Positions 53,682-58,408 of a DNA stretch of 64,000 nucleotides are shown piece by piece (position 1 is the stretch's first letter; every line of letters starts with the position of its first letter). Source of the DNA: Caldalkalibacillus uzonensis. Its GTDB lineage: Bacteria > Bacillota > Bacilli > Caldalkalibacillales > Caldalkalibacillaceae. The position numbers were made by a program, and so were the translations under genes. The stretch covers positions 62,001-126,000 of the forward strand of contig NZ_JAUSUQ010000001.1 in NCBI RefSeq assembly GCF_030814135.1. Reading direction: 5' to 3'. The notes below the pieces were generated by a model that had not been told where the DNA came from, searched no databases, and saw nothing but the letters and a program-made list of their open reading frames with translations.

Positions 53682-53714
53682 AACTGAACGCGATGTATGG
53701 AGGAGGTAGCGTTA

Positions 53715-54278
53715 ATGTCTCAAACAGAAAAAGATATTCAATGCCGTGAGATTGTCACCAAAGCTGTTTGTGGTAGAGGTCGCAAATTTACTCAAGCTAC
53801 TCACACCATTACTCCATCTCACTCTCCCACCAACATCCTGGGATGTTGGATTATTAATCATAACTATACAGCTACCAAAGAGGGAGACACAGTTGAAGTA
53901 AGTGGTTCTTATGACATTAACATTTGGTACTCATACAACAACAACACACAAACACAAGTGGCAACAGAAACAGTCAGTTATGCAGACCAGGTTCCGTTAA
54001 CCATGATGGATAAAAACTATCTGGATAACGGACTGCAGGTCGATGCCAGAGCGACTCAGCAACCAACAGCTTGTGAGGCGACAATTTCTAACTCTGGCCA
54101 TTCTGTACTTGTTCAAGTGGAACGTGAGTTTTTAGTGGAAGTGATCGGTGAAACCAAGGTGTGTGTCATGGTATGCCCCGGTGGTTGTGACGGATTGGAT
54201 GACAAGGAATTTACCTTTGACGACGATCAGGACTTTGAAGAATTAGATCCTGATATCGTCATCGACGAGTTGGATTAA
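53715..54278 (+). CDS. cotE: Outer spore coat morphogenetic protein CotE
   Basis: The scaffold on which the outer spore coat assembles, located at the mother-cell side of the forespore. The 187 residues match CotE along their length (REIVTKAVCGRGRKFTQATH, ILGCWIINHNY, GSYDINIWYSYNNNT, REFLVEVIGETKVCV) and end in an acidic tail (EELDPDIVIDELD). It carries more cysteines than B. subtilis CotE, for example CVMVCPGGCDG near 150. ATG at 53715 follows GGAGGAGGT by seven bases. Confidence 0.95.
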   Translation: MSQTEKDIQCREIVTKAVCGRGRKFTQATHTITPSHSPTNILGCWIINHNYTATKEGDTVEVSGSYDINIWYSYNNNTQTQVATETVSYADQVPLTMMDKNYLDNGLQVDARATQQPTACEATISNSGHSVLVQVEREFLVEVIGETKVCVMVCPGGCDGLDDKEFTFDDDQDFEELDPDIVIDELD

Positions 54279-54299
54279 CGTAATAAACATTATGTTAAG

Positions 54300-54322
54300 T
54301 GGAGGGTTTATCCTCCATTTTT
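54300..54322 (+). terminator. Intrinsic terminator after cotE
   Basis: TGGAGG-GTTTAT-CCTCCA is followed by TTTTTC. It ends eight bases before the SigK-like boxes of the next gene, so the next gene probably has its own transcript. Confidence 0.75.
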
Positions 54323-54329
54323 CTTTCCT

Positions 54330-54358
54330 CACTTTTTCAATAGGGGGTGCATATTTTG
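54330..54358 (+). promoter_or_regulatory. SigK-like promoter of the amidoligase gene
   Basis: CACT at 54330-54333, 16 bases, then CATATTTTG at 54350-54358. It has the same -35 box, spacing and terminal TG as the dpaA promoter in this window. Start would be near 54365, about 43 bases before the ATG. Confidence 0.6.
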
Positions 54359-54407
54359 AAGGGTAGGAGGGTTGATCGACTTCTAAAGTAGAGGAGCTCG
54401 TCACTAT

Positions 54408-55727
54408 ATGAACGTCAGAGTGGAAGACCTATCCATTCCCAATGTCACTGTTGATCTTGATCAAGTCGATCGCTATACACCTGGAGCTTTTGAACTTCGT
54501 TTATATGTACCTCCTGCAACTGAAGCAGAAAAAGACCTGGAACAAAATCTTTTACACCTCAACGGCATTCCTGTTGCAAGGGATAAGAGTCACCGGCCAA
54601 AAAAGCTATTACGCTTTGCCATTTGCCAGTGGGAGTGTTTCGGTCTTTGGCAAACGGGCAAAGGGACAGAGGATAACAAACCACTGTTAAATACCCAATC
54701 CAAAGAACGATGGCGCTTTCGTTCCTTACCATTGAATACCTACACTCGGGATGTCAGGAAGGCCCGGCAGTTGGCTTTACGATGTCTATATGCTTTAGGG
54801 TACGACTTGGGGGTTGTCGATCTCGGTGTTTTCCCGATTAAACCCCGCTACCGTGTGTACCGCATTACCAACCATATTCCTGCCAGTTGTAAAGAAGCAT
54901 TAACCCGTTTGATTGACAAGCAAAGAAAAGAATTTGATCAGCATGCTGAACCTGTTGTGGGGGCCGATTTGGAGTTTATTTTAAGGCATCGTAACGGAAA
55001 GTACGTACTGGCTTCCAACTATTTACCCAAGCAGGGCAGAGTAGGTCACGATGCCATTTGGATTCCTGGTCAGCGCAACAAGCATCCCATAGCGGAGCTG
55101 AGACCCAAAGAAAGCGCTGATCCCCTGGAGCTGTTTAAAAACATTTATGTGTGCATGCGTTTGGCTGCCCGAAAAATCAACAATCCTGACATTCATTGGC
55201 TTGCGGGCGGAAAACCACTGAAAGGCTTTCCCATAGGGGGACATATCCATTTCAGCGGGGTTCCGCTCAATACGCGTCTGGTCCGTACTTTGGACAATTA
55301 TATTACCTTGCCTTTGTTTTTATTTGAAAGTACTACCTCCCTTTCCCGCCGTCCAAAGTATGGGTTTATAGGAGATGTACGTGAACAGTATCACGGGGGT
55401 TTTGAGTACCGCTCACCCCCCAGCTGGCTGGTACGTCCACGGGTGACTAAAGGGGTTGTCTGTCTGGCCAAAGTGCTGGCCAATGATTATCAAAATCTGG
55501 TTTGGATGCCCCTTAACAACCCCCAGGTGCAAATGGATTTTTACCATGGTGAACAGGACAAGTGCAGAGGGATTGTTGAGCAACTTTGGCAGGAACTCAT
55601 ACACCGTTGTCCTTCCTATGGGTCTTACCAAGAAGAACTGGATCAATTCTATCAACTGATTGAATCCAACTACCGCTGGGAAGAGTATCAGGATATTCGC
55701 AAAGCATGGCGGCTGTCTCCATCCTAG
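54408..55727 (+). CDS. Predicted COOH-NH2 ligase (amidoligase) beside cotE
   Basis: A 439-residue protein that appears to belong to the phage phiEco32-like amidoligase family (PF14395) of the glutamine synthetase / gamma-glutamylcysteine ligase fold. Ordered motifs fit that fold: GADLEF at 185-190, GHD at 213-215, AELRP at 229-233, GGHIHF at 277-282 and GFEYRSPPSWL at 331-341. These supply acidic, histidine and arginine residues for metal-ATP binding. The first 180 residues are a separate region with no motif I recognise. No signal peptide or membrane segment is seen. A mother-cell-type promoter and cotE upstream suggest it ligates an amine to carboxyl groups in spore-coat material. The substrate is unknown. 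Confidence 0.75.
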   Translation: MNVRVEDLSIPNVTVDLDQVDRYTPGAFELRLYVPPATEAEKDLEQNLLHLNGIPVARDKSHRPKKLLRFAICQWECFGLWQTGKGTEDNKPLLNTQSKERWRFRSLPLNTYTRDVRKARQLALRCLYALGYDLGVVDLGVFPIKPRYRVYRITNHIPASCKEALTRLIDKQRKEFDQHAEPVVGADLEFILRHRNGKYVLASNYLPKQGRVGHDAIWIPGQRNKHPIAELRPKESADPLELFKNIYVCMRLAARKINNPDIHWLAGGKPLKGFPIGGHIHFSGVPLNTRLVRTLDNYITLPLFLFESTTSLSRRPKYGFIGDVREQYHGGFEYRSPPSWLVRPRVTKGVVCLAKVLANDYQNLVWMPLNNPQVQMDFYHGEQDKCRGIVEQLWQELIHRCPSYGSYQEELDQFYQLIESNYRWEEYQDIRKAWRLSPS

Positions 55728-55780: not shown

Positions 55781-58408
55781 ATGGCACAATATACACCGAT
55801 GATGGAGCAATATTTATCGATTAAAAAAGAATATCCTGATGCTTTTTTGTTTTTTCGCCTAGGAGATTTCTATGAATTGTTCTTTGAGGATGCCCAGCAG
55901 GCAGCCCAAATTCTAGAGATCACGTTAACCAGCCGCCCAGCAGGAAAAAACGGTGAAAAGATCCCGATGTGTGGCGTTCCTTATCATACAGCAAATCAAT
56001 ACATAAAAAAGATGATCGACCAAGGACATAAAGTCGCCATATGTGAGCAGGTGGAAGACCCTAAAGAGGCCAAAGGGGTTGTTAAACGGGAAGTGATTCG
56101 CGTCATTACCCCGGGAACGTTAATGGAAGAGAGCATGCTGGCTGATGACGAAAACAATTTCATGCTGTTTTTGACGAAAACACATGGTGAGTATGCTGTC
56201 GTAGGCTGCGATTTGTCCACCGGAGAAGTAACCGGTACAAAGATATCGGAATGGGAATTGTTACTTGAGGAGACAAGCCATTTTCGACCCAAAGAGGTAA
56301 TCATTTCCACAGCCTTCAGTCAAGACGAAATCAAAGGGCTGAAGCAACACTATCCGGGAATTGTCACTGTGCGGGAACCTAGCTCACTCGCTGAAGTGAA
56401 CAGCTCAGAATGGTTGAAGCATCAACAGGCATCATCTGCCGGTGAAGCGATCAGCGAAGCGCTGGGTCTGATGTATGGGTATTTACTGGACACCCAAAAA
56501 AAGATGATCGATCACCTGCAACCGTTCCACTATTATGAGACCCAGGCCTTTTTGGCATTGGATGCCCATGCCAAGCGCAATCTTGAATTGCTCGAAACGT
56601 TGCGTGAACGGAGCAAAAAAGGATCATTATTATGGCTCCTTGATAAAACCTGTACGGCGATGGGAGGGCGGCTGCTAAAAAAATGGCTGATGCGTCCCTT
56701 GTTGAACAGGGAGCTAATTGAACAGCGCTTAAATCTTGTTGAGATCTTGGTCAATGACCCTTTTGTCCGTGAGGAGATCATGTTGCTTTTAAAAGATGTG
56801 TATGACCTGGAGCGTTTAGCAGCCAGGGTAGCTTTTGGCAATGTCACCCCACGGGACTTGTTGCAATTGAAACGTTCATTACAGGTGTTGCCTGATCTTG
56901 TGGGGCAGCTCTCCAAATTGCCGGCTGCTGACATACAGCCTTTGATCAAGCAGATTGACCCCTGCCCGGAGTTGGTCACTTTGTTGGATAAAGCCCTGGC
57001 AGAAGATGCACCGGCCACCATTAAAGAAGGGGGCATCTTCAAGCCAGGATATCATGAAGAATTGGACCGGCTGAATCAGGCCAGCCGGGAGGGAAAGCAC
57101 TGGATTTCCGAGCTGGAACTGAAAGAAAGGGAACGAACAGGGATCAAGTCATTAAAAGTGGGATATAACAAGGTGTTCGGCTACTATATTGAGGTGACCA
57201 AAGCCAATGTTCACCTCCTTGATGAGGGACGTTACCAACGCAAACAGACCCTGAGCAACGCTGAGCGGTTCATTACGCCGGAGCTGAAAGAAAAGGAAGC
57301 CATGATCCTCGACGCCAGTGAAAGGGCGCTTGAATTAGAGCATCAGCTATTCGGCGAGTTGCGACATCAGGTCAAAACTTACACCGAGCGCTTGCAGAAA
57401 CTGGCCCAGACAATTGCCCAGCTTGACTGTTTGTGTTCCTTTGCCAAGGTGAGTGAACAACATCATTACGTTCGTCCTGCCTTTAGTCACAACGGTGAAC
57501 TTGTCGTTCAAGCCGGACGCCATCCTGTGGTGGAACAGGTCTTGCCCAGCGGGGAGTTTGTCGCTAATGATGTGCATATGAACGATCGTGACCGCCAAAT
57601 TTTACTGATTACCGGCCCCAATATGGCTGGTAAAAGCACATACATGCGCCAGCTGGCCCAGATTGTGATCATGGCCCAGATGGGCTGCTTCGTCCCTGCA
57701 CAAGAAGCTACACTGCCCATTTTTGATCAAATTTTTACCCGGATTGGTGCAGCCGATGACTTAGTTGGCGGGCAGAGCACGTTTATGGTTGAAATGGTGG
57801 AAACCAAACGGGCCATAACCCAGGCCACGCCAAACAGCCTTATTTTACTGGATGAAATCGGCCGGGGCACCGCCACTTACGACGGCATGTCCCTGGCCCA
57901 GGCCGTGATTGAATACATTCATGACCATGTGCAGGCCAAGACCTTATTCTCCACCCACTATCATGAGCTAACAGATCTGGAGTACCAACTGGAGCGGGTT
58001 CAAAATGTGCATGTGGCCTGTTCGGAACATGAAGGACGTGTCACGTTTTTACATAAAGTATTGGAGGGCAAGGCGGACCGCAGTTACGGCATCCACGTAG
58101 CCGAGCTGGCAGGTATGCCTGAACATGTGATTAATCGGGCTGCCGCCATTTTAGAGGTGCTGGAATCTAAAGGGGAGGCTGCTCTAGGTACAGAACATTC
58201 CAAGGTTAGCGAGGCCGGGCAGCTTGTCCAACTTTCTTTATTTGCAGAGGAGGAGCAGCAAGAAGGGACCAGGCAAACACCAAAGTGGCAAAAGAAGATT
58301 CTCGCTGAGATTGAAGGACTGGATTTAATTAACACAACACCCCTGGAAGCATTGAACACCCTCTACCGCTTGCAACAACGGCTGAAAGGCAAAGGGGGGA
58401 GAACATGA
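55781..58408 (+). CDS. mutS: DNA mismatch repair protein MutS
   Basis: A mismatch-recognition ATPase of 875 residues. The mismatch-binding FYELF motif is near 38 (GDFYELFFEDA). Walker A GPNMAGKS is at 612-619, Walker B LLDEIGRGT near 690 and STHYHEL near 724. A C-terminal QLSLF near 815 is a beta-clamp binding motif, the same pentapeptide that ends PolC. GGGGGAGAG precedes the ATG. Its stop overlaps mutL by four bases. Confidence 0.97.
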   Translation: MAQYTPMMEQYLSIKKEYPDAFLFFRLGDFYELFFEDAQQAAQILEITLTSRPAGKNGEKIPMCGVPYHTANQYIKKMIDQGHKVAICEQVEDPKEAKGVVKREVIRVITPGTLMEESMLADDENNFMLFLTKTHGEYAVVGCDLSTGEVTGTKISEWELLLEETSHFRPKEVIISTAFSQDEIKGLKQHYPGIVTVREPSSLAEVNSSEWLKHQQASSAGEAISEALGLMYGYLLDTQKKMIDHLQPFHYYETQAFLALDAHAKRNLELLETLRERSKKGSLLWLLDKTCTAMGGRLLKKWLMRPLLNRELIEQRLNLVEILVNDPFVREEIMLLLKDVYDLERLAARVAFGNVTPRDLLQLKRSLQVLPDLVGQLSKLPAADIQPLIKQIDPCPELVTLLDKALAEDAPATIKEGGIFKPGYHEELDRLNQASREGKHWISELELKERERTGIKSLKVGYNKVFGYYIEVTKANVHLLDEGRYQRKQTLSNAERFITPELKEKEAMILDASERALELEHQLFGELRHQVKTYTERLQKLAQTIAQLDCLCSFAKVSEQHHYVRPAFSHNGELVVQAGRHPVVEQVLPSGEFVANDVHMNDRDRQILLITGPNMAGKSTYMRQLAQIVIMAQMGCFVPAQEATLPIFDQIFTRIGAADDLVGGQSTFMVEMVETKRAITQATPNSLILLDEIGRGTATYDGMSLAQAVIEYIHDHVQAKTLFSTHYHELTDLEYQLERVQNVHVACSEHEGRVTFLHKVLEGKADRSYGIHVAELAGMPEHVINRAAAILEVLESKGEAALGTEHSKVSEAGQLVQLSLFAEEEQQEGTRQTPKWQKKILAEIEGLDLINTTPLEALNTLYRLQQRLKGKGGRT

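Follow-up and report, generated by a model that had tools for sequence, protein, structure and literature searches.

A ligase gene between cotE and mutS

The window, the 64-kb stretch of Caldalkalibacillus uzonensis DNA analysed here, carries on its forward strand a gene for a two-domain protein of 439 aa (54408–55727), which its Pfam match and an AlphaFold model assign to the PF14395 family of COOH-NH2 ligases. Upstream on the same strand lies cotE (53697–54278; PF10628, 272.7 bits), encoding the outer spore-coat morphogenetic protein, with a start more likely at 53715 (MSQTEK). A pattern scan found an intrinsic terminator with a 10-bp stem and a T-rich tail behind cotE (54297–54320, forward strand), and stem-T tracts resembling it occupy the same place in loci L002–L005. 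Between this terminator and the ligase we recognised a predicted SigK-type promoter (54330–54358, forward strand), made up of CACT (54330–54333), a spacer of 16 nucleotides and CATATTTTG (54350–54358), from its sequence and from the conservation of the motif. The downstream neighbour on the forward strand is mutS (55781–58408), identified by Pfam and conserved in synteny. An earlier reading of the letters alone (the sequence-only reading) had placed the ligase between cotE and mutS, separated from cotE by a terminator and preceded by a CACT-N16-CATATTTTG promoter; the Pfam matches, the pattern scan and the promoter letters, which are exactly as claimed, agree with it. Comparison of the ligase with a same-genus homologue gave dN 0.18, far below dS 1.54 (itself close to saturation), and the ligase is therefore a selected gene under purifying selection.

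The C-terminal domain and its predicted GS/GCS-type fold

Residues 184–436 (54957–55715) match the complete PF14395 profile (positions 1–254) with 302.3 bits at a cut-off of 25 in the Pfam search, and this was the sole Pfam match of the protein. The family is named 'Phage phiEco32-like COOH.NH2 ligase-type 2'. The five motifs listed in the sequence-only reading, GADLEF (185–190), GHD (213–215), AELRP (229–233), GGHIHF (277–282) and GFEYR (331–335), lie inside this match in the order given there. They take in many of the 29 columns that are invariant among 47 aligned homologues, which are 24–73% identical to the window protein; the window protein has all 29. Among the invariant residues are D187, E189, D215, E230, R232, H279, H281, R314, R315, R325, E333 and R335, which we take to match the acid-x-E / H-x-H / E-x-R pattern of GS/GCS-superfamily enzymes.

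An AlphaFold2 model of the ligase, built with 47 homologues, reached a pLDDT of 92.9 and a pTM of 0.93. Foldseek matched it in the PDB to glutamine synthetases (E 7e-6), to YbdK (TM 0.39/0.47) and, in third place, to bifunctional GshF (3ln7), with moderate TM-scores of 0.3–0.4 to solved GS-fold enzymes. In the viral library the COOH.NH2 ligase from Salinivibrio phage CW02 ranked first (TMt 0.60), ahead of phage amidoligases and ATP-grasp proteins. dN was lower in the catalytic half of the protein (0.13 versus 0.25). Structure prediction, which had been suggested as a check, thus returned a GS/GCS-type fold and no match to a non-ligase fold and, together with the full PF14395 match and the invariant residues, upholds the fold that had been claimed. 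In the model, the ligase has a GS/GCS-type fold and its putative active site is intact. Catalysis, ATP dependence and amide chemistry would follow from the homology of the fold.

The enzyme had been called undescribed, which was mistaken, as its family was already known as PF14395. A spore-coat role was reportedly proposed by Iyer et al. in 2009, with mention of YheC/D and CotE neighbours; the Pfam text for PF14395 reportedly notes the same neighbours and a role in the spore coat or wall. Among the papers found in a literature search, none describes an experiment on a member of the family.

Tgl is an ATP-independent cysteine enzyme of a family unrelated to the ligase. This spore-coat transglutaminase of B. 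subtilis forms epsilon-(gamma-glutamyl)lysine amide bonds during late coat maturation (PMC6490927). By domain content the ligase is no Tgl-type cross-linker: the PF20085 transglutaminase domain is absent and PF14395 is the sole match.

In genus g231 of the Paenibacillaceae-like family f5, the ligase match is split near profile position 77 within one open frame (for example G468:C3:448136-448963 and G459:C11:1041171-1041998), which suggests that the catalytic domain has gained an insert peculiar to this lineage.

The N-terminal domain is a degenerate ATP-grasp domain

The first 180 residues had been left as uncharacterised in the sequence-only reading. They can now be named: residues 1–183 (54408–54956) are a degenerate RimK/R2K-type ATP-grasp domain. 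A Pfam scan of 56 N-domains yielded scattered chance matches and nothing more, so the ATP-grasp origin had to be established from profile, structure and phage evidence. When a profile of the 56 N-domains was compared with all PDB sequences, the top four matches were RimK (E 0.0013–0.0094), each in two collinear stretches that leave out about 50 residues in between. A separate model of the N-domain from one homologue (L035) had a pLDDT of 91.5, and Foldseek returned ATP-grasp ligases throughout the 50 matches listed, RimK (E 5e-9, TM 0.66) being followed by PsnB, ArgX and D-Ala-D-Ala ligases. The order of elements is the same in the AlphaFold model of the window protein.

Phage contigs carry a stand-alone homologue of this domain (235–300 aa) near PF14395 genes, and these proteins match RimK, R2K or ATP-grasp Pfam models. 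In the alignment they have a segment of the length of the ATP-grasp lid and an E-V-N-type motif. The lid-length segment is kept in two spore proteins from outside the Bacilli (L198 and L205) and deleted in all aligned Bacilli N-domain sequences, while the Mg-binding E and N are each kept in 5/61 family members. With the lid gone and the Mg-binding residues mostly replaced, the N-domain is a pseudo-ATP-grasp domain. It shares its fold, in shortened form, with RimK, the glutamate ligase of ribosomal protein S6, but differs from it in these two features, so that ATP binding is not to be assumed, and catalysis in the spore ligase is placed in the other, C-terminal domain. In GshF (gamma-GCS/glutathione synthetase) a GS/GCS-fold ligase is likewise fused to an ATP-grasp domain, but there both domains are active, the product is glutathione and the domain order is reversed. 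We found no homology between the N-domains of the ligase and of the YheCD proteins (hhalign probability 0.2%, best hmmsearch E ~0.5) and rejected the idea that they are the same domain.

The phage members of PF14395 share the catalytic motifs with the window ligase, which matches the family profile at full length. They align with it only from residues ~150–184 onwards, and their ATP-grasp protein is encoded by a separate gene, whereas in the spore proteins it is fused and degenerate. We infer that a separate pair came first, then fusion and then decay of the N-domain. Searching named phage genomes with tblastn gave no match, and a profile scan of IMG/VR gave 17 distant phage matches. Five phage-like IMG/VR contigs (L164, L171, L172, L173 and L176) carry two or three PF14395-like genes with a stand-alone RimK/R2K-like ATP-grasp gene, which suggests a phage peptide-ligation cassette.

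A conserved SigK-type promoter precedes the ligase

We counted the pattern AC-N14-17-CATAnnnT[AG] in the stretches that precede the ligase. It was present in 45/109 loci, compared with 1.9 in shuffled sequences, and in 23 of the 43 clusters formed at 60% identity, for which 300 sets simulated from a first-order Markov model had a mean of 0.5 and a maximum of 4. The gap between the ligase and mutS in the same loci served as a control and had the pattern in 0/19 cases; a SigE-type pattern upstream of the ligase was found in 0/109 loci. In a further set of 25 loci, mostly starts of YheCD/ligase operons with fusion genes and a few loci in which the ligase comes first, 12 had the SigK-type motif where about one was expected. 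The motif also lies directly upstream of a four-gene YheCD operon in the window genome (C2). A raw scan of the window found the pattern roughly every 7 kb on each strand, so a lone site is little proof and conservation across loci is what counts. The promoter that had been read from one site is thus confirmed as a motif conserved across families, and on this sequence pattern expression of the ligase probably begins late in sporulation. The genes yheC and yheD are under the control of SigE and SpoIIID (PMC517825).

Operons and fusions link the ligase to YheCD

The order cotE–ligase–mutS was found in 75/80 named loci, from groups known as sporeformers, and both neighbours lie within 1.5 kb of the ligase in 23 of 30 other loci. 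Where sporeformers lack the ligase, mutS comes next after cotE in 16/20 stretches and does not occur in the remaining four. Eight loci (L061, L062, L065, L066, L204, L208, L213 and L214) have cotE, then one or more YheCD genes along with the ligase, and in other lineages the ligase occurs with cotE or YheCD but away from mutS. The position beside cotE, given in the sequence-only reading, is the common one but not a general one: YheCD genes intervene in several lineages, and some copies from outside the Bacilli have no cotE within the ~6 kb examined.

YheC/YheD (PF14398) are predicted peptide ligases that share with the ligase a sporulation context, operons and fusions, but differ from it in fold and family, and the N-terminal domains are without detectable homology. 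YheD of B. subtilis, a coat protein localised in a SpoIVA-dependent manner, interacts strongly with itself and builds shells around the spore, and no activity is known for it (PMC7911427). Four Bacilli proteins of 872–905 aa have PF14395 fused to PF14398, and up to five ligases stand in a row within one operon. The fusions and operons indicate that the ligase and YheCD belong to one process.

A paralogous set of such fusions (L067:6548-11544, L068:6511-10605, L069:3782-9639 and L070:6647-9265) has the look of a pathway for a peptide or polymer. The L067 fusion stands upstream of genes for a Mur-type ligase and a PEP mutase and downstream of an N-formylglutamate amidohydrolase-like gene; some of these neighbours have homologues in L068 and L069. 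Elsewhere in the window genome, one YheCD homologue appears as two adjacent partial matches (G000:C5:241325-242072) and is possibly a broken copy.

Distribution of the ligase follows sporulation

Among 250 Bacilli genomes, SpoIVA was found in 177, CotE in 177 and the ligase in 138, all within that set; none of the 73 Bacilli without SpoIVA had the ligase. YheCD was present in 138/138 ligase-bearing Bacilli (mean of at least 7.6 copies), whereas the 39 ligase-minus sporeforming Bacilli had a mean of 1.5 copies and none in 15. In a sample of the phylum, 20/20 ligase-bearing genomes had SpoIVA, which is weak by itself since 128/149 of the whole sample did. The ligase is missing from most SpoIVA-bearing genomes of other Bacillota classes. 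Across the class and phylum samples, with phages and other phyla not counted, 155/155 ligase-bearing genomes had SpoIVA. The survey of co-occurrence that had been suggested thus found no ligase in non-sporeforming Bacilli and a tight linkage to cotE.

In a MutS tree the sampled ligase-minus sporeformers formed one clade (SH-aLRT 96), so the ligase was probably lost once, on the B. subtilis branch. Much of the phyletic pattern consequently hangs on few events, and non-sporeformers descended from that branch would be non-independent evidence. Family f5 is an independent test of loss together with sporulation: 143/144 of its SpoIVA-bearing genomes have the ligase, the exception being a 510-contig assembly, and 17/17 genomes without SpoIVA, all of one genus, lack it.

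The ligase-minus clade, B. subtilis included, makes spores without the ligase. We considered that the ligase might stand in for Tgl and rejected this, as the two were not complementary (Tgl in 46/138 ligase-bearing and 17/39 ligase-minus sporeformers). Nearly all knowledge of spore-coat chemistry comes from B. subtilis, whose branch lost the ligase, while most other sporulating Bacilli, for example Paenibacillus, Brevibacillus and Thermoactinomyces, have kept this late ligase beside cotE.

Proposed role in spore-coat maturation

On balance we favour, as rather likely, an enzyme of the mother cell that is under SigK control and, together with YheCD enzymes, forms amide bonds at the expense of ATP while the spore coat matures. 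The C-terminal GS/GCS-fold domain would activate a carboxylate as an acyl-phosphate and join it to an amine, and the dead RimK-type N-domain was probably retained to hold a peptide or protein substrate. YheC/YheD-type ATP-grasp ligases would act in the same pathway, each enzyme adding or capping a residue, and the outcome would be amide-linked amino acids on coat proteins or on a coat-bound peptide. Gene context would place the ligase at the coat, with a coat component as its predicted target. To our knowledge, these findings are new: the identification of the N-domain, the conservation of a SigK-type promoter, the disappearance of the ligase along with sporulation, the counts for its dependence on YheCD and the lead from the CotE tail. 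The common promoter, operons, fusions and decayed RimK domain make the target of the sporulation amidoligases a directly testable question.

It is also possible, if rather unlikely, that the ligase and YheCD leave proteins unmodified and build a free or wall-bound peptide that is put in or on the coat, such as a capsule-like or teichuronopeptide-like polymer or a small metabolite. GS/GCS-fold and ATP-grasp ligases often build peptides and polymers, runs of up to five ligases per operon suit stepwise assembly, and the paralogous fusion of L067 has a Mur ligase and a PEP mutase as neighbours, part of the set also has the amidohydrolase-like gene, and this arrangement resembles metabolite or polymer synthesis. 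However, that fused set is a paralogue and not the cotE locus, no transporter, glycosyltransferase or polymerase was recognised in the spore-locus operons, whose neighbours are partly annotated, and the RimK-like N-domain indicates a peptide or protein partner.

A more specific form of protein modification, which we regard as doubtful, is that the dead RimK-like domain holds the acidic tail of CotE, as RimK holds S6, while the invariant tail lysine or the C-terminus receives an amino acid or peptide from the GS-fold domain; YheCD would lengthen this tag, and the ancestor of the B. subtilis group would have lost the system in one event. The CotE C-terminus of the window (54120–54278) is an acidic tail with one lysine in an acidic context (codon 54204–54206). 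A lysine occurs at a similar place in 72/72 unique CotE tails from ligase-bearing genomes, usually as the sole lysine of an otherwise acidic tail, and CotE tails of the B. subtilis branch usually have Trp or an acid there. Among the CotE proteins of L001–L160, the tail ends in a D/E-L-D/E motif in 82/114 ligase-bearing and 0/20 ligase-minus cases. For the lysine as for this motif, the contrast amounts to n = 1 and is a lead only, because the ligase was lost in one event. Tail acidity was rejected as a marker of ligase presence (no difference, p 0.16). These tail sequences faintly suggest the lysine as a candidate acceptor. Such tagging, if true, would be the developmental equivalent, in bacteria, of S6 glutamylation or of the modification of tubulin tails.

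We consider it improbable that the protein is a structural or scaffold coat protein of ligase ancestry in which catalysis is dispensable. YheD offers a precedent in its self-interaction and its spore shells without known activity (PMC7911427), and catalysis has already been lost from the N-domain; against this, 29 residues, putative metal and nucleotide ligands included, are invariant down to 24% identity, and the catalytic half has the lower dN. The position directly upstream of mutS in most Bacilli might suggest a housekeeping gene or a mutS-linked passenger that plays no part in sporulation. This is very hard to reconcile with a conserved SigK-type promoter, a transcription unit of its own past the cotE terminator, the lack of the ligase in every one of the 73 sampled Bacilli without SpoIVA and in the Paenibacillaceae genus that does not sporulate, and its association with cotE or YheCD at loci of other lineages that are not next to mutS.

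CotE has been reported to be absent from clostridia (PMC3533761). We found CotE homologues in Bacillota outside the class Bacilli, adjoining the ligase or YheCD (L204, L206, L207, L208, L209, L210, L213 and L214), and CotE may be older or commoner than thought.
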